Assembly (NCBI GenBank): GCA_900470445.1
Contig: UCAU01000036.1
Span: forward strand, 1-64,000
DNA length: 64,000 nucleotides
Source: Hyphomicrobiales bacterium
GTDB lineage: Bacteria > Pseudomonadota > Alphaproteobacteria > Rhizobiales > Devosiaceae
Reading direction: 5' to 3'
The notes beneath the pieces were generated by a model. It made no database searches. It was not told the DNA's origin and saw only the letters and a list, made by a program, of their open reading frames with translations. A program made the position numbers and the translations under genes. Of this stretch, positions 35,592-44,486 are shown one piece after another. Position 1 is the first letter of the stretch; each line of letters starts with the position of its first letter.

Positions 35592-36823
35592 TTACCTGTG
35601 GCTCGCGGCGGATGAAAGTTGCCCCGCCGATCCATTTGCGAGCGCCCGCGCTACACCCCTCAGTTCCGCCAATCCCTTTAGTCGGCCAATCAGCGGATAG
35701 CCCGGCTGCCCGCCACGGTTCAGGTCGTCGAGAATGTCCTGGCCATGATCGGGCCGCATCGGGATTATCGCGTCGGAGCGTCCGGCGGCCTTGCGCCGCG
35801 CTTCCTCGTCGACAATGGCTCTGATCAGCGCGATCATATCGACGCTGCCGTCCAGATGCTCGCTTTCATAGAAGGAGCCGCCCACGCCGTCGCCTTCCAG
35901 CTGCACATTGCGCAGATGCAGGAAATGCACGCGGTCGCCCAGGCGTCGCATGATGCCGGCGAGATCGTTATCCGGCCGCGCCCCGAGCGCGCCGGAACAC
36001 AGGGTCATACCGTTTGCCGCATCCGGCAGATGGTCGAGCATGGCGCGATAGTCGGCTTCGGTCGACATGATGCGCGGCAGGCCCATCAGGGAAAACGGGG
36101 GATCGTCCGGATGGCAGCAGAGGCGTATGCCGAGCCCGGCCGCAACCGGCACCACTTCTTCGAGAAAATCGAACAAATGCCGGCGCAATCGCTCGCTCGA
36201 TATGTCGCCATACCGCGCCAGATGTTCCTGCACGGTGCCGACCGACAATCGGTCAGCGGCTCCGGGCAATCCCGCCAGCACGCTTGCTGCCAGCTTTTGT
36301 TTGTCGGCGTCGCTCATGCGCTTGAAGCGTGCCGTGGCTTCGGCTGAGACAGCTTGCGAAACGCTCTCGGCCGCGCCTTTGCGCTGCAAGAGGTGAATAT
36401 CGAAAGCCGCGAAGTCGATCGCGTCGAACCGCATGCAGGTGCCGCCATGCGGCAGGCGCCAGGCCAGGTCGGTTCGGGTCCAGTCGATGACCGGCATGAA
36501 ATTGTAGCAGATCGTAGAAATGCCGGCTGCTGCCAGGTTTGCGAGGCTCAGTTTGTAATTGGCGATGTGCTCGCGCCAGGCGCCGGTCTGCCGTTTGATG
36601 TCCTCCGAAACCGGCAGGCTTTCCACGACAAGCCAGACGAGGCCCGAAGCGCGGCCGTCGCGTGTCGTGCTTATCTGAGCCTGGCGTTTGGCGATCTCGC
36701 TTGCGGGCCAGACTGCGCCGTCGGGGATATGGTGTAAGGCAGAGACGATACCGGTGGCACCCGTCTGCATGATGTCGGAAATGGTGGTGACGTCGGACGG
36801 GCCGAACCAGCGCCAGGTTTCGA

Positions 36824-36827
<4 letters not shown>
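35592..36827 (-). CDS. uxuA: Mannonate dehydratase
   Basis: 411-residue TIM-barrel enzyme that dehydrates D-mannonate to 2-keto-3-deoxygluconate in glucuronate catabolism. UxuA features: [35 protein letters not shown] at the N-terminus, [41 protein letters not shown] near HLR, and the MRPDHGQ motif. The ATG at 36827 overlaps the ATPase stop (ATGA), so it is translated with the importer. Enzymes for the preceding steps are not in the window except possibly the divergent Gfo/Idh/MocA proteins. Confidence 0.92.
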
Positions 36828-37912
<1,085 letters not shown>

Positions 37913-37923
37913 CAATATGGTCC

Positions 37924-39009
37924 TTACTTGATACCGGTCGAGGCAATGCCGCTGGTAATGTAGCGTTGCAGGAAGATGAAGGCGAAGGCGAGCGGCAGGG
38001 CCGTCAGCGTCGTCATCGCCAACAGGATTTCGTAGCGCACACCATATTCGGTCTGAAACGAGGCCAGGGCCAGTTGCAGCGTGTAGGACTCGCGCCGGGT
38101 CAGCACGACCAGTGGCAACAGGAAGTCGTTCCAGCGCGACAAGATTGAGAAGATCGCGACCACGGCCAAAGCCGGCGAGGACAGTGGCAGGATGATGCGC
38201 CAGAAAATACGCCATTCGCTGGCGTGATCCATGCGCGCCGCCTCGATCAATTCATCCGGAATGGTCAGCATATATTGTCGCAACAGGAAGACGCCGGTCG
38301 GCGTGGCCACAGTCGGCAGGATGACGCCCCAGAGATTTCCGACCAGCCCAAGCTGGGCAACGATCATATAGGTGGGGACCAGCACCACTGTTGCCGGGAT
38401 CATCAGGGTGGCAAGGATCGAGACCAGCGCGACATTGGAGCCGCGGAAGCGGTATTTGGACAGCGCAAAGGCCGCCATGGAATTCATCACCAGCGTGATG
38501 ATGGTTGCCACCACCGTGATGAAGAGACTGTTGAACAAATAGCGCCACATCTGCCCGCCGGAACTGCTTAGCAGATTGGTGTAATTCTCGGTGGCAAGGT
38601 GCAATTGCCGGACTGGCGTCGCATTGCCCACCGGCACCACGATCCGCTCCTGCGGATTGGCGGGATCGATCATCTGCGCCTGGATGCCGACCCGGCGCAA
38701 TTGCGCCAGCTGACGGGTCTGGCCATCCTCGCCCACCACGTCAAACAAGGGCAGGGGTTCGTCGTGGCCGTCCACCACTACCGTCTGGGCCGCATAGGGC
38801 AGCAGCGTCGGCGGAAATTCGGTGAGGTTTGCCGGGGTCTTCAGCGACGAAATGGCCACCCACAGCACTGGCGTAAACATCACCAGCAGCCCGAGGAACA
38901 GGTAGAGATAGGTCAGCCAGTCGGTCCAATCGAGCCGCTTGCGGCCGCGCCGGCGCGTGGCGAATTCAACGATCGACACTGTCGGTTTGGCTTGGCTGAG
39001 ATCAGTCAT
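37924..39009 (-). CDS. Sugar ABC transporter permease (MalG-like) with an extra periplasmic loop
   Basis: 361 residues, about 80 longer than a usual MalG protein. Between the first helix (about 31-56) and the remaining helices lies an insert of roughly 90 residues ([41 protein letters not shown]), expected in the periplasm. The EAA loop [23 protein letters not shown] is normal. ATG 39009, with GAGGTGG upstream, overlaps the preceding permease by 8 bp. Confidence 0.9.
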
Positions 39010-40000
39010 TATTGCCACCTCGCGAAATGCGCATCTGGATACCGGTGAAAATCAGGAGCGCCAGCCCCAGGAACAGCGACGCGGCAGCGGCCAGGCCGAA
39101 ATTGCGGGGCTGAGTGGCGAAGCCGACTTCGTAAATGTACTGGACCATCAGCATGGTGGCCGAGCCGGGGCCACCACCGGTCAGCACATAGAGCTCGTCG
39201 AAAGTCTGCACCGAGCGGATCACCGCCAGGATGAAAACCACCAGCATGACGGGCTTGAGCAGCGGCAGCGTGATCCGGGTGAACACCCGCCACGGGGAGG
39301 CAGAGTCCATCTTGGCCGCCTCGTAGACATCGCGTGGAATGGCCTGCAGCCCGGCCAGCAGGATGATCGTGTAAAAGCCCATATGGGCCCAGACGGTCAC
39401 GAAGACCGACCAGAAGAACGCCGTATTGGGGAAGATCAGCCAATTGACCGGCGTCAGGCCGGCCGCCGAGATCAGCCCGTTGAGCGCCCCGTCGCGCTGC
39501 AGAATCCACTGCCAGGTCAGTGCCACCACAACGGGGGAGAGCATGACGGGGAAAAAGAAAATGCCGCGGAAGAAACCTCGGCCGACAATGTCGCGGTTCA
39601 GGCAGATCGCGGTCAGCAGGGCGACGGCAATCATGCAGATCACCTGCACCGGCACGAACACCATCGTATTGCCCAATGCCCGCCAGAACAGATCGCGCGA
39701 GCAGGTGGAGGGATCGAGATAATTGCCGCAATCGAGCAGGCTCTGGTAATTGGCGCCGCCGACAAAAGGACGATCCCAGGGGAACAGCCGGTCGCTGCCG
39801 CTCACCGAATAGAAGATGTTGATGAAGACCGGCAGCAGGGCGAACAGCACGACGGCAACCAGGTTGGGCAGCAGGAAGACCCACGGCATCCGCTTGATGC
39901 CGACCCCTCGCTGAATGCCTGACATTGCCGGCTCAATGAGGCGCGCCGGCAGTGACAGGATCGCGCCAGCGGCCGAGGCGAGTTGAACCCTTGCGCTCAT
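39002..40000 (-). CDS. Sugar ABC transporter permease (MalF-like)
   Basis: 332-residue permease with six main helices and the coupling loop DVYEAAKMDSASPWRVFTRITLP. The first periplasmic loop has an unusual insertion with two cysteines (LLDCGNYLDPSTCSRDLFW) that could form a disulfide. It forms a heterodimer with the downstream permease. Confidence 0.92.
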   Translation of the reverse strand: MSARVQLASAAGAILSLPARLIEPAMSGIQRGVGIKRMPWVFLLPNLVAVVLFALLPVFINIFYSVSGSDRLFPWDRPFVGGANYQSLLDCGNYLDPSTCSRDLFWRALGNTMVFVPVQVICMIAVALLTAICLNRDIVGRGFFRGIFFFPVMLSPVVVALTWQWILQRDGALNGLISAAGLTPVNWLIFPNTAFFWSVFVTVWAHMGFYTIILLAGLQAIPRDVYEAAKMDSASPWRVFTRITLPLLKPVMLVVFILAVIRSVQTFDELYVLTGGGPGSATMLMVQYIYEVGFATQPRNFGLAAAASLFLGLALLIFTGIQMRISRGGNND

Positions 40001-40062: not shown

Positions 40063-41346
40063 TCAGGGCTGTCCGCCGGCCGCTTGAATGGCGAGATTGA
40101 CGTCTTCCTTGATGCGTTCCATCGCGGCATCCACCGTCAGCTCATTGTTGAGCACCTGGCTGATGCGGGTGGTCAGCGCGTTCATCATCGCCCGCTGATA
40201 GCGCCAGCCCTGGAAGCGGTAGGCCGCGGCATCCATCTTCGGAATCTGGTTGATGAATGTGGCCAGCGCCTCCGAGGTGCGGGCCGAGGCCGTTGGATAT
40301 TCCACCCCATTGGCGATTTGCGAGGCCGCGGACGGAATCTCGACTTCAGTTGAGATATAGTGATCGAGATTTTCCGGTTGGGCAAAAAAGTTGATCAGTT
40401 TCCCGGCAATCTCGGCATTCTGAGTGTGGGAGAACACGGTCATGGCGCCGCCGCCTGGCATGACGGTGCATGACGATGGCCCGCAGGGCGCCGGAACCAC
40501 GGCCCAGTCGAACAGATCGCCGACTTCGCTATCCATCTGCGCCAGCGTCCAGGAGCCGCCGAAATAGAGGACGGTGTTGGCATTGAGGAAATCGGAAAAC
40601 AGCTCGCGATGGGTCGCGCCGCCGACGGCGCCCCAGAGGTCCATCGGCATGGTGCCGTCCTGGTGCCAGGTGACGAATTGCTCGATGGCGGCACGCAGGC
40701 CATCGTCGACCACGGGGTGCCCCGCCTCATCGACCAATTGCGCGCCATAGCTGATGGCAAGGCTGGCAAAGCGGTGGCCTGAACGGTCCATTTCCATGGC
40801 AAATTCGGTATTGGTGGCTTGCGCCACTTGCCGCGTTGCCTCCGCCCATTCCTGCCAGGTTGCGCCCTCGGCGGGAACCGGCACGCCAGCCTGCTCGAAC
40901 AGGGTCAGATTCACATAGGCGCCGTTGACGGTGAGCGTCGTCGGCATGCCGTAAATGGCCGTGCTCGCCGCATCGCCGCCGCGCAGCCATTGCAACGTCT
41001 GGCCCCATTCCTGCTCGAAATAGGCCGCGTCAACATAGGGTGTGATGTCCTGATAGAAGCGGCTCAGCCCACCCAGATCGGTGATGATGGCGATGTCCGG
41101 CCCTTCGCCGGCTTCCAGTTGCACCGGCAAGCTTTCTACCAGGGTTTGGTAGCTCACTTCCTCCACATTGACGGTGACGCCGGGATTTTCGGCTTCGAAG
41201 GTTTTCGCCATTTCGGCGAAGATTTTGCCCCCGCTGCCGGTATCCCCGGCCCAAACAGTGATCTGCTGCCCGTAGGCCAGGCTAATCGGCGCGGCGGCAA
41301 TTACCAAAGCCAGCGCGGTCGTGGTCCTCAATCCAGTGCGTTTCAA
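40063..41346 (-). CDS. Sugar ABC transporter, extracellular solute-binding protein
   Basis: 427-residue family 1 binding protein. Start assigned to TTG 41346, which has a strong GGAGGAGG at 8 nt, and not to codons further upstream that would cross the operators. Signal peptide covers residues 1-27 (cleavage near AYG/Q). Body features: FEAENPGVTVNVEEVSYQTL, EAGEGPDIAIITDLGGL. A Cys pair CGPSSC sits in the mature part. First gene of the importer-uxuA operon. Confidence 0.9.
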   Translation of the reverse strand: MKRTGLRTTTALALVIAAAPISLAYGQQITVWAGDTGSGGKIFAEMAKTFEAENPGVTVNVEEVSYQTLVESLPVQLEAGEGPDIAIITDLGGLSRFYQDITPYVDAAYFEQEWGQTLQWLRGGDAASTAIYGMPTTLTVNGAYVNLTLFEQAGVPVPAEGATWQEWAEATRQVAQATNTEFAMEMDRSGHRFASLAISYGAQLVDEAGHPVVDDGLRAAIEQFVTWHQDGTMPMDLWGAVGGATHRELFSDFLNANTVLYFGGSWTLAQMDSEVGDLFDWAVVPAPCGPSSCTVMPGGGAMTVFSHTQNAEIAGKLINFFAQPENLDHYISTEVEIPSAASQIANGVEYPTASARTSEALATFINQIPKMDAAAYRFQGWRYQRAMMNALTTRISQVLNNELTVDAAMERIKEDVNLAIQAAGGQP

Positions 41347-41407
41347 TTCCAGTTCCTCCTCCAGGAATGCGCTGCGTTTGAAACAGCCGCTGAGCCCAAG
41401 CTTGTTT

Positions 41408-41444
41408 TGGTAAGACCACAATGTCAAGCCTTCTGGTATGACCA
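41408..41444. promoter_or_regulatory. Two GntR/FadR-type operators flanking a -35 box
   Basis: TGGTAAGACCA (41408-41418) and TGGTATGACCA (41434-41444) both fit TGGT-N3-ACCA, the FadR-subfamily consensus. Between them lies TTGACA on the minus strand (41422-41427), a -35 for the binding-protein operon. The -10 is not obvious. Confidence 0.65.
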
Positions 41445-41571
41445 GATTGGATGGCGGCATGATGCAGACCGAAGATTTCCAGCATTTCTGCGCGATAATT
41501 ACGCAAAAAGGCAACAATATCGGTCTATCTGGTCAGCCATTGGTGCTTGACAGGAAAACGGAATGCCTGTC

Positions 41572-41582
41572 TGGTTCGACCA
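41572..41582. promoter_or_regulatory. Third GntR/FadR-type operator
   Basis: TGGTTCGACCA, again TGGT-N3-ACCA, 48 bp before the Gfo/Idh/MocA start at 41630. It would put the rightward operon under the same regulator (43746-44486). A degenerate copy, TGGTCAGCCA, lies at 41530-41539. Confidence 0.6.
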
Positions 41583-41629
41583 ATTAATGAGCCTGCACTG
41601 GCTCGCCAGTAGTGGAGGAAATGCCTGAA

Positions 41630-42646
41630 ATGGTTAGATTTGCGGTCGTCGGCATCGACCACGGACATATTTTTGATCATGCCAAGGGGCTGATCAAGGC
41701 CGGCGCCGAGTTTGTCGGCTATTGCCCCCAAACCTCGATTCCAAGCCTGGTCGAGAGCTTTGCGCAAGCCTATCCGGAAGTTCCCCAGATCGATCGAGAA
41801 ACGCTGTTTGCCGATTCCAGCATTGACGTGATCTGCATTGCCGCCATTCCGAAAGACCGTGCGGGCCTGGCGATCCAGGCCATGCGTGCGGGCAAGGATG
41901 TCATGGTCGATAAGCCCGGCCTTACCACCTACGCCCAGCTCGAGGCGGTGCAGCAGGCCGTGAGCGAAACCGGGCGCATCTTCTCGATCTGCTTCACCGA
42001 GCGGCATAGCGTTCGCTCGGCAGTCAAGGCTGGCAAGCTGGTCGCGGAGGGCGCCATCGGCAGGGTCATCCAGACCTTGGGCACCGGGCCGCATCGCCTG
42101 GGCAATTCCCGGCCCGACTGGTTTTGGCAACGTGACGCATTCGGCGGCATCATCGTAGATATCGCCTCCCACCAGATCGATCAGTTCCTGTTCTACACCG
42201 GCTCCGACACTGCGGAGGTCGTCACGTCCCAGGTCGCCAATTTCGCCAATCCGCAGGCGCCCGAATTCGAGGATTTCGGCGATCTGCTGCTGCGCAGCGA
42301 CAAGGCTTCCGGCTATGTCCGTGTCGATTGGTTCACCCCGGATGGCCTTCCGACCTGGGGCGATGGCCGGCTGACCATATTGGGCACCGAGGGCTATATC
42401 GAGCTGCGCAAATATGTCGATATCGCTGGCCGCGACGGCAAGGACCACCTTTTCCTCGTCAACAAGCATGGCGTAGAACATATCGATTGCTCCAACGAAG
42501 AACTCGACTACTTCGCCAGCTTTGCCGCCGATGTGCGCGACCGCACCGCGACCGCAATGTCCCAGCAACATGTCTACGAGGTCTGCCGGCTGTCCCTCGA
42601 TGCGCAGAGCCGAGCCGTCAACATTTCTTCCCAGCCTAAAGGATAG
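41630..42646 (+). CDS. Gfo/Idh/MocA-family oxidoreductase
   Basis: 338 residues. The Rossmann motif is altered (FAVVGIDHGHIFDHAKGL) and the family EKP is DKP (VDKPGLTT). The C-terminal domain has FGGIIVDIASHQIDQFLFYTG. I choose ATG 41630, 10 nt after GGAGGA; an ATG three codons earlier is too close to that site. Likely a sugar or uronate-derived substrate dehydrogenase, coupled to the next oxidoreductase. Confidence 0.88.
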   Translation: MVRFAVVGIDHGHIFDHAKGLIKAGAEFVGYCPQTSIPSLVESFAQAYPEVPQIDRETLFADSSIDVICIAAIPKDRAGLAIQAMRAGKDVMVDKPGLTTYAQLEAVQQAVSETGRIFSICFTERHSVRSAVKAGKLVAEGAIGRVIQTLGTGPHRLGNSRPDWFWQRDAFGGIIVDIASHQIDQFLFYTGSDTAEVVTSQVANFANPQAPEFEDFGDLLLRSDKASGYVRVDWFTPDGLPTWGDGRLTILGTEGYIELRKYVDIAGRDGKDHLFLVNKHGVEHIDCSNEELDYFASFAADVRDRTATAMSQQHVYEVCRLSLDAQSRAVNISSQPKG

Positions 42647-42651
42647 ATCCC

Positions 42652-43716
42652 ATGACCCGGAAACTGCGCGTCGGCCTGATTGGCGCCGGCATCGCCCAGC
42701 GGCACTTGGCCGGCTACAACTGGAACAAGGACCTGTTCGAGGTTCCCGTGCTCTGCTCCCTCGATGAGGACCGCGGCCGCCAGGCCGTCGCTGAATTCGG
42801 CGTCGGCGAATATACCAGCGACGTCGAAACCCTGTTCGCTCGCGACGATCTCGATGTCATCGATATCTGCACGCCGCCCGATTCCCATTTCGCGCTCTCA
42901 AAACGCGCCATCGAGGCGGGCAAGCACGTCATCTGCGAAAAGCCGCTTTTCGGCTCGATCGCCGATGTCGACGCGATGAGCGAAATCGTCGGCAAGACCG
43001 ATCGGAAATTCATGCCCATCTTCCAGTATCGCTACGGTACCGGGTTGCAGAAACTCAAGCGGCTGATTGAACTGGGTCTGGCCGGCCGGCCGTTCCTCAC
43101 CACGGTCGAGACACATTGGTGGCGTGGTCCGGCCTATTACGAAGTGCCGTGGCGCGGCAAATGGGCCAGCGAACTGGGCGGGGGGCTATTGGGCCACGCC
43201 ATCCACGCCCATGACATGCTCAACTATGTCCACGGCGCCTGCGCCGAGATTTTCGCCCATGGCGCGACCCTGGTGAACAAGATCGAGGTCGAGGACACCA
43301 TGACCCTCTCGGTCAAGATGGCCAACGGCTCGCTCGCTGCCCTGTCCATGACTTTGGGGTCGCGCAAGGAAATCTCCCGCCTGCGCTTCTGCTTCAGCGA
43401 CATGGTGGCCGAGAGTATTCTGGAGCCCTATACCATGGGCCGTGACCCATGGACCTTCATCGCCGGCACACCGGAGCACCAGGCCAGGATCGATGCAGCG
43501 CTCGCTGACCACCAGGTCACCGAGGATGGCTATACCAGGCAGTTCGAGCTGTTCCATCAAGCGGTGATGACCGGCGGGGAGCCGCCCGTGACCCTGGAAG
43601 ATGCGCGCAATTCGCTTGCTTTGGTGACCGCCGCGTATCATTCCCAGAGAACGGGCCAGCCGTCACAATTGCCAATCACGCCAGCGCATCCGCTTTATGG
43701 CTCCTGGCTCCCTTGA
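42652..43716 (+). CDS. Gfo/Idh/MocA-family oxidoreductase
   Basis: 354 residues with canonical GLIGAGIAQRHLAGY, the EKP motif in ICEKPLFGS, and GGGLLGHAIHAHDMLNYVHG in the substrate domain. It differs clearly from its neighbour 5 bp upstream, so the pair probably does successive or partner steps (compare paired oxidation and reduction in keto-sugar pathways). Substrate unknown. Confidence 0.9.
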   Translation: MTRKLRVGLIGAGIAQRHLAGYNWNKDLFEVPVLCSLDEDRGRQAVAEFGVGEYTSDVETLFARDDLDVIDICTPPDSHFALSKRAIEAGKHVICEKPLFGSIADVDAMSEIVGKTDRKFMPIFQYRYGTGLQKLKRLIELGLAGRPFLTTVETHWWRGPAYYEVPWRGKWASELGGGLLGHAIHAHDMLNYVHGACAEIFAHGATLVNKIEVEDTMTLSVKMANGSLAALSMTLGSRKEISRLRFCFSDMVAESILEPYTMGRDPWTFIAGTPEHQARIDAALADHQVTEDGYTRQFELFHQAVMTGGEPPVTLEDARNSLALVTAAYHSQRTGQPSQLPITPAHPLYGSWLP

Positions 43717-43745: not shown

Positions 43746-44486
43746 ATGCAAAAGGACCGGAGCTACCCGCGGCTGCAGGGCAATCAACGGCTGTATCAGG
43801 TCGTTGCGCGCCAGATCGCCAAGCTGATCGAGCAGAACGCTGCCGACAAATCCTGGCGCATGCCATCCGAGCGGGAACTGGCCGAAGAACTCTCGGTCAG
43901 CCGCCCGGTGGTCCGCGAGGCGGTGATCGCGCTGGAAATGCGCGGCATCGTCGAAGTGCGCGGCCGGGCCGGGATCATGGTCCTACCCAGCAGGCTGTCG
44001 CAGGTGAACTTCGACCTCTCCGTAAGCGACATCGGGCCCGGACCGTTCGAGCTGCTGGAGGCGCGTCTCGCCATCGAATCGAGCGCGGCGGCACTCGCTG
44101 CCGAGCGGGCGACCAATTATGATATCCTGGTGCTTGAGGAATGCATCGCCCAGATGGAGCAGGAAACCGAAGTGGTCCTGCTGCAGGAAAAGGGCGATCG
44201 GGACTTCCACATGACGATTGCCAGGATGACCAACAATGCCATCATCGTCTCGATGATCGAGGCCCTATGGGCGCAGCGCGATGAATCATTGATGTGGAAG
44301 AAGCTGCACGAGCACATCCACGCCGAAAGCGTGCGCCCGCTCTGGATTGGTGATCATCACGCGATCCTTTCGGCCCTGCGCATGCGCCATCCCGACGCCG
44401 CCTATAAGGCGATGGCGCGCCATATCCGCAACGTCACCAATGAACTGCTCGAAGCAGACGAACGCGGCCGCGTGGTCACGGAGTAG
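43746..44486 (+). CDS. GntR-family regulator, FadR subfamily
   Basis: 246 residues: N-terminal winged HTH (WRMPSERELAEELSVSRPVVREAVIALEMRGIVEVRGRAGIMV) and an all-helical FCD ligand domain with conserved metal-site histidines (DRDFHMTIARM, GDHHAILSAL, MARHIRNV). ATG 43746 follows GGGAGGTCAAAG. FadR-type UxuR/ExuR proteins control uronate genes. Three matching operators at 41.4-41.6 kb and uxuA in the divergent operon support that role here. Confidence 0.92.
   Translation: MQKDRSYPRLQGNQRLYQVVARQIAKLIEQNAADKSWRMPSERELAEELSVSRPVVREAVIALEMRGIVEVRGRAGIMVLPSRLSQVNFDLSVSDIGPGPFELLEARLAIESSAAALAAERATNYDILVLEECIAQMEQETEVVLLQEKGDRDFHMTIARMTNNAIIVSMIEALWAQRDESLMWKKLHEHIHAESVRPLWIGDHHAILSALRMRHPDAAYKAMARHIRNVTNELLEADERGRVVTE

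Follow-up and report, generated by a model that had tools for sequence, protein, structure and literature searches.

According to the parts of PMC4494728 on which we draw, most transcription factors of the FadR subfamily recognise a TKGT/ACMA palindrome with a 3-nt distance between GT and AC, and divergons that contain the regulator gene and two such sites have been described. In the same parts of that paper, the sites of ExuR, an enterobacterial member of the subfamily, have the 3-nt distance, and a 2-nt spacing is reported for the enterobacterial regulator UxuR. A further precedent, taken from portions of PMC7797058, is Atu1419 of Agrobacterium fabrum, an FCD repressor of the VanR group, which is a tetramer, recognises ATGTATACAT and has two palindromes separated by 190 bp within a single promoter region: one covers the -10 element, the other lies between -10 and -35. 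As far as these excerpts go, the consensus and the two-site divergons (PMC4494728) and a comparable two-palindrome FCD repressor (PMC7797058) are already known. A search of a literature collection of partial coverage, judged by titles and the start of abstracts, gave no paper on the cassette described below among the matches listed; the motif string and GntR occur together in PMC9600882, a paper on Caproicibacterium.

Here we analyse a divergent promoter region in the window, that is, the whole 64-kb stretch of DNA. It resembles the FadR-subfamily divergons of PMC4494728 in that two operons diverge, one of them with the regulator gene, from an intergenic region with TKGT/ACMA palindromes; it differs from them, as described in those parts of the paper, in holding three exact sites and a tentative fourth, and in that a distal site outlives the divergent operon in some relatives. 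With ExuR it shares the 3-nt distance (PMC4494728, in part) and the linkage to a mannonate dehydratase gene, but the locus links ABC-transporter genes and two Gfo/Idh/MocA oxidoreductases as well. The 2-nt spacing of UxuR sites is shared by the tentative fourth site; the three main sites have 3-nt spacers. The likeness to Atu1419 lies in an FCD regulator with separated palindromes in one promoter region; the recognised sequence is different, and the window regulator may belong to either the FadR or the VanR group.

Divergent operons and predicted operators

The intergenic region extends from a solute-binding protein gene (SBP) on the minus strand to the ATG of gfo1 on the plus strand. The genes of the two operons are as follows.

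35592-36818, minus strand: mannonate dehydratase (UxuA); NCBIfam uxuA, 464 bits, cut-off 200
36824-37912, minus strand: UgpC/MalK-type ABC ATPase; NCBIfam PRK11650, 473 bits, cut-off 432
37924-39018, minus strand: ABC permease 2; Pfam BPD_transp_1
39002-40000, minus strand: ABC permease 1; Pfam BPD_transp_1
40063-41358, minus strand: SBP, carbohydrate ABC solute-binding protein, first gene of the leftward operon; Pfam SBP_bac_1 and SBP_bac_8
41630-42646, plus strand: gfo1, Gfo/Idh/MocA oxidoreductase, first gene of the rightward operon; Pfam GFO_IDH_MocA families (scanned from 41612)
42652-43716, plus strand: gfo2, Gfo/Idh/MocA oxidoreductase; Pfam GFO_IDH_MocA families
43746-44486, plus strand: gntR, GntR/FCD regulator, presumed to bind the operators; Pfam GntR and FCD (scanned from 43713)

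The open reading frame listing starts gfo1 at a GTG at 41612; the ATG at 41630 aligns with the starts of its orthologues, sits 10 bp after GGAGGA, and corresponds to ATG in 28 of 29 loci and to GTG in the remaining one (L063). Sequence searches of the PDB gave no function for either oxidoreductase: the close matches of gfo1, 2p2s and 3u3x, are both named merely oxidoreductases, and those of gfo2 are less close.

The palindrome TGGT-N3-ACCA occurs three times between the operons and nowhere else in the window. The predicted elements of the region are listed below.

41408-41418, no strand: operator 1 (distal, predicted), TGGTAAGACCA, exact match
41422-41427, minus strand: leftward -35-like TTGACA (TGTCAA on the plus strand), from its sequence and its conserved offset to the distal operator
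41434-41444, no strand: operator 2 (predicted), TGGTATGACCA, exact match
41530-41539, no strand: tentative fourth site, TGGTCAGCCA, with a 2-nt spacer and one imperfect arm, preceding the rightward -35
41547-41552, plus strand: rightward -35-like TTGACA, from its sequence and its fixed distance to the proximal operator
41572-41582, no strand: operator 3 (proximal, predicted), TGGTTCGACCA, exact match

The preliminary description had claimed an exact fit of three sites to the FadR-subfamily consensus, two of them flanking a leftward TTGACA and the third preceding the operon that encodes the regulator, and each of these statements is borne out. All three sites are exact copies of TGGTNNNACCA, within the subfamily's operator form of a TKGT-ACMA palindrome with a GT-AC distance of 2-3 nt. 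Operator 1 lies just downstream of the leftward -35, before the place where a -10 element would lie; operator 2 lies upstream of the same -35, 26 bp from operator 1. Operator 3 overlaps the expected -10 of the rightward promoter, in front of an operon whose third gene is gntR. The rightward TTGACA had been absent from that description. A scan of 41358-41640 for sigma-70-type promoters gave no hits, and no matching -10 was recognised for either -35-like box, so that the promoter assignments rest on the -35-like boxes and their conservation. At roughly 100 bp upstream of gfo1, the fourth site recurs as TGGTCA(G/A)CCA in 6 of the 11 Devosia loci and in 0 of the 18 others; we regard it as tentative because its ten-base form occurs twice in the window and the looser TGGTNNRCCA six times.

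Conservation in orthologous loci

Orthologous loci were found in 10 other Devosia genomes and in records titled Pelagibacterium, Rhizobium, Chelativorans, Aureimonas, Martelella and Marinicella. We counted 29 gfo1-gfo2-gntR loci, 11 from Devosia (window included) and 18 from the six other record genera. Left out of this set were L074, where the contig begins after gfo1; L093 and L094 (Caballeronia, GntR 40%, no gfo1 match); L067-L071, L082 and L083, seven duplicates of Devosia genomes already counted; and L053-L060, which hold regulators 35-41% identical at other loci. The counts and ranks over the 29 loci are not independent, because the loci are related: they include two R. mongolense strains, four Chelativorans records, a Martelella-like group and a Devosia genome of the same species. 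Within the genus the orthologues are patchy, a regulator at least 66% identical being present in 8 of 61 genomes, the own genome included.

The gene order gfo1-gfo2-gntR is kept in all 29 loci, and the divergent operator architecture is conserved in Devosia and in the six other record genera. An exact site lies within the 330 bp upstream of gfo1 in 27 loci (49 sites in total), L084 and L088 having one-mismatch sites instead. Among 2304 palindromes (256 four-base arms with nine spacers) counted in the 29 upstream regions, TGGT-N3-ACCA ranks first; the runner-up, CTGG-N5-CCAG, in 16 of 29 loci, is the same site read one base further out. With at most one mismatch, the distal site is found in every locus, and a counterpart of operator 2, a second distal site spaced 24-26 bp from the first one, in ten: exact in the window, L061, L062, L046, L047 and L049 and with one mismatch in L063 within Devosia, exact in Pelagibacterium L072 and L073, and with one mismatch in Martelella L085. 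In pairwise alignments the operators persist while the DNA between them diverges.

The distances between operators and -35-like boxes are likewise kept. The start of the proximal site follows that of the rightward TTGACA by 25 bp in 25 of 29 loci and by 26 bp in L084, 26 in total; the spacing is missing in L047, which has no proximal site with one mismatch or fewer, and in L051 and L052. On the other side, a leftward -35 exactly 14 bp from the distal site is present in 17 of the 23 loci with a divergent ABC operon and in none of the six without one (Fisher p=0.002, uncorrected for relatedness). It is missing in the other 6 of the 23, and L051 and L052 lack both geometries.

Some loci show features of their own. 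Five genes of L049 (G038, Devosia sp. A8/3-2), namely uxuA, ugpC, the gene for permease 2, gfo2 and gntR, are each split into two partial matches whose frames mostly differ, as if the assembly contained insertion/deletion errors. The Devosia genomes G016 (L051:11187-13034) and G011 (L052:9406-11278) carry, beside the operon's own GntR (69-71%) and converging on it, a second GntR paralogue that shares 66-67% identity with the window regulator. Directly after gntR, a small gene of the glyoxalase fold is found at L079:10765-11157, L087:10773-11165, L088:10745-11173 and L089:10746-11174, and in these Chelativorans and Martelella-like loci it is probably a further member of the operon.

Chance occurrence and clustering in the genome

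TGGT-N3-ACCA has 55 matches in the 4,795,736 bases of the own genome. Dinucleotide shuffles of the window (n=100) gave a mean of 0.57 matches per 64 kb and at most 4, from which about 43 would be expected by extrapolation to the genome. With the count this near to chance, an isolated match is uninformative, and to this extent the sites might be read as chance occurrences of an eight-base palindrome: the motif is about as common genome-wide as chance would have it (55 in 4.8 Mb), one of the 100 shuffles also held three or more matches, and among the matches listed (50 of 55), 42 of the 47 places outside the window lie inside genes. This last figure comprises 41 places called by a crude, home-made codon model, which found no gene in L095, and L104, where that model missed a LysR-like gene and the place falls within the LysR-like match; five places were uncalled.

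The cluster is another matter. The three sites span 175 bp. For three matches whose starts fall within 164 bp, the expectation is 1e-4 per genome, and one of 20,000 simulations contained such a cluster; among the matches listed (50 of 55), only these three are clustered in an intergenic region. The rightward pattern of -35 and operator has three matches in the genome, and only the one in the window has the ACC arm. Chance is contradicted by these cluster statistics, by the first rank of the palindrome in the 29 orthologous regions, by the fixed distance to TTGACA and by conservation, and we regard it as exceedingly improbable. It had been proposed beforehand that a motif equally frequent at random would speak against the sites; this holds roughly for single sites and fails once clustering and conservation are considered. 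What is observed directly is the sites themselves, that they cluster non-randomly and are conserved, and that they keep fixed distances to the -35-like boxes; we take them to be, very probably, a real operator set because of the cluster expectation, the palindrome ranking and the TTGACA geometry, conservation being decisive.

A wider regulon in the own genome was considered and rejected, since most of the other listed places lie in genes and the five remaining ones hold no second cluster. When the regulator was compared by tblastn with the 45 stretches that contain the other listed places, one match was obtained, of 26% over 158 residues, in L102. Elsewhere in the genome, three consecutive predicted genes (L066:3092, 4279 and 5426, contig C46) contain one TGGTTCAACCA each; they are of similar length and look like tandem copies. 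The reversed control pattern ACCANNNTGGT has 173 matches in the own genome, three times the number for TGGTNNNACCA.

The GntR/FCD regulator

The protein encoded at 43746-44486 has the domains of the FCD subfamily, Pfam GntR scoring 51.5 bits (cut-off 27) and FCD 84.4 bits (cut-off 24.3). In an alignment of 12 regulators, E42, R53 and R57 are invariant and were matched by eye to Glu34, Arg45 and Arg49, which contact DNA in FadR and Atu1419 according to portions of PMC7797058; by eye, Thr46, a contact residue of FadR, aligns with a proline, P54. Also invariant are D151, H155, H204, H205 and H226, compatible with the site of three His and one Asp/Asn that, in the same portions of PMC7797058, marks the metal-binding subset of FCD proteins. 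An AlphaFold2 model (pLDDT 83) has seven helices in the effector domain if the short one at 182-191 is counted, and a low-confidence linker (80-99) without a helix; its superposition on the effector domain of DhdR gives a TM-score on the target of about 0.8 and an rmsd of about 3 Å, and full-length TM-scores are about 0.5. The best and second-best NCBIfam matches are ExuR (PRK11523, 164.8 bits, cut-off 396) and UxuR (PRK10225, 159.8 bits, cut-off 442); these scores, far below the cut-offs, led us to reject an identification with either.

Another FadR-type regulator of the genome might act at the sites, or this regulator might act as an activator. At E<=0.001 the regulator has at least 20 matches in the own genome, counting itself (27 of 40 candidates were scored), and the consensus is common to the subfamily. 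Moreover, in six of eight stretches from other loci of the genus or order, the gene of a regulator with 35-41% identity has one TGGTNNNACCA 30-102 bp ahead of it (L053:11437, L054:3095, L055:8426, L056:8930, L059:8840 and L060:8196; not in L057 and L058), which suggests a second autoregulated family of FadR type in the genus and means that the motif does not single out the window regulator. Since the motif is common to the subfamily, we assign the sites to this regulator by linkage. That linkage holds in 29 of the 29 loci counted, and the placement of the sites beside or over presumed promoter elements would fit repression better than activation; a different regulator, or activation, is improbable in our estimate.

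A proposed model for repression

Very probably, the three sites are the operators of the FadR-subfamily regulator encoded at 43746-44486, which would repress both operons, and itself with them, until a ligand binds. With a dimer bound at operator 1, where the leftward -35 and the presumed -10 lie on either side, and a second one at operator 2 in support, the operon for the ABC transporter and uxuA would be blocked; another dimer at operator 3 would cover the presumed rightward -10 and block gfo1-gfo2-gntR, the regulator's own gene included. Release of the regulator from DNA by a small ligand would then switch on uptake and catabolism together. Binding, repression, autoregulation and ligand release are what we infer from the arrangement of sites and genes, and the region looks like a real but ordinary on/off switch for the uptake and breakdown of a sugar-like compound.

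The most likely ligand is a sugar acid or a catabolite derived from the sugar that is imported. Hexuronate-type ligands, as put forward in the preliminary description, receive weak support from uxuA, located behind the ABC genes in 8 of the 11 Devosia loci; against them stand its occurrence in 0 of the 18 other loci, as far as the fetched stretches reach, and the low scores of the regulator against ExuR and UxuR. Homologues of uxuA (45-48%) are found near three Rhizobium loci (L075-L077), and no match above the search thresholds was present in the other 15 non-Devosia stretches counted. From its presence in Devosia and near the Rhizobium loci, a sugar acid is a plausible ligand.

Loci without the divergent ABC operon

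In L077, L081, L086, L088, L089 and L092 the search gave no divergent SBP match, and the distal site is nevertheless kept in all six, exactly in five and with one mismatch in one. In L077, L081, L089 and L092 (CNNM, GST, OEP and ALO families), the closest upstream gene called with confidence points towards gfo1; the corresponding gene of L086 is of RpiR type, lies on the minus strand and is about 310 bp away from the distal site, and L088 has no clear upstream gene. A weak minus-strand gene call of 61 codons lies beside the distal site in L092, and L077 and L086 hold other ABC genes at a different place, with ugpC matches of 47%. Two pairs of related loci, L080/L092 (GntR 83% identical) and L090/L077 (85%), allow a direct comparison: the distal operator is kept and the leftward -35 is gone in the second member, and both operators stand out of diverged DNA in the alignments. 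Separately, a TRAP transporter (DctM, DctQ, DctP) adjoins the gfo-gntR operon in the Martelella locus L089 (11484-14312), and L086 has genes of similar size and order.

These loci bear on how the operators divide their work. Operators 1 and 2 might control the leftward operon only and operator 3 the rightward one only, each acting alone, as the preliminary description implied, and we consider the prospects of this reading to be about even. The leftward -35 sits between operators 1 and 2, the rightward one is next to operator 3, and in the parts of PMC4494728 drawn on here each site presumably controls its own operon in 71 of 100 double-site FadR divergons with a regulator gene. The retention of the distal operator in six of six loci without a divergent ABC operon tells against it and suggests that the distal operator may serve the rightward operon too.

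In that case distal and proximal dimers might cooperate, possibly by looping over about 164 bp, to make one complex switch, a reading that we hold with less than even confidence. It would account for a distal site that is kept where the leftward -35 is found at its fixed offset in 0 of 6 loci, where the upstream gene reads towards gfo1 in 4 of 6, and in the second members of both pairs; and a DNA loop has been observed with Atu1419 and its palindromes 190 bp apart (PMC7797058, in the portions used). Several points weigh on the other side. The six loci may represent about three independent losses, four of them being Martelella-like, and the distal sites could be recent relics; in L092 the weak gene call adjoins the distal site. 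Distal and proximal sites show weak helical phasing, R being 0.44 for a period of 10.5 bp with 17 spacings and a nominal p of about 0.04 (five periods computed), and the set includes one spacing, from L087, that was taken from a spurious site. The GntR regulators studied before Atu1419, according to the same portions of PMC7797058, are dimeric. A stricter form, in which the distal operator is an obligatory partner for repression of gfo-gntR, perhaps by looping, with a two-arm complex spanning the divergent region, is somewhat unlikely; under it, the distal operator would persist without the transporter operon because rightward repression requires it.

Implications

Under the preferred reading, in which the GntR/FCD regulator represses both operons from the three sites, the locus provides a well-supported set of operators, together with a candidate regulator, for a cassette of transporter and oxidoreductase genes that occurs in Devosia and six further record genera. 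The distal operator that survives without a divergent promoter is a natural experiment, which makes cooperation between operators of FadR type directly testable. If the obligatory two-arm arrangement were true, looping, described for the tetramer Atu1419, would be conserved in a second FCD lineage, one with a wide distribution. The ligand of the regulator, in turn, would reveal the substrate of the cassette.
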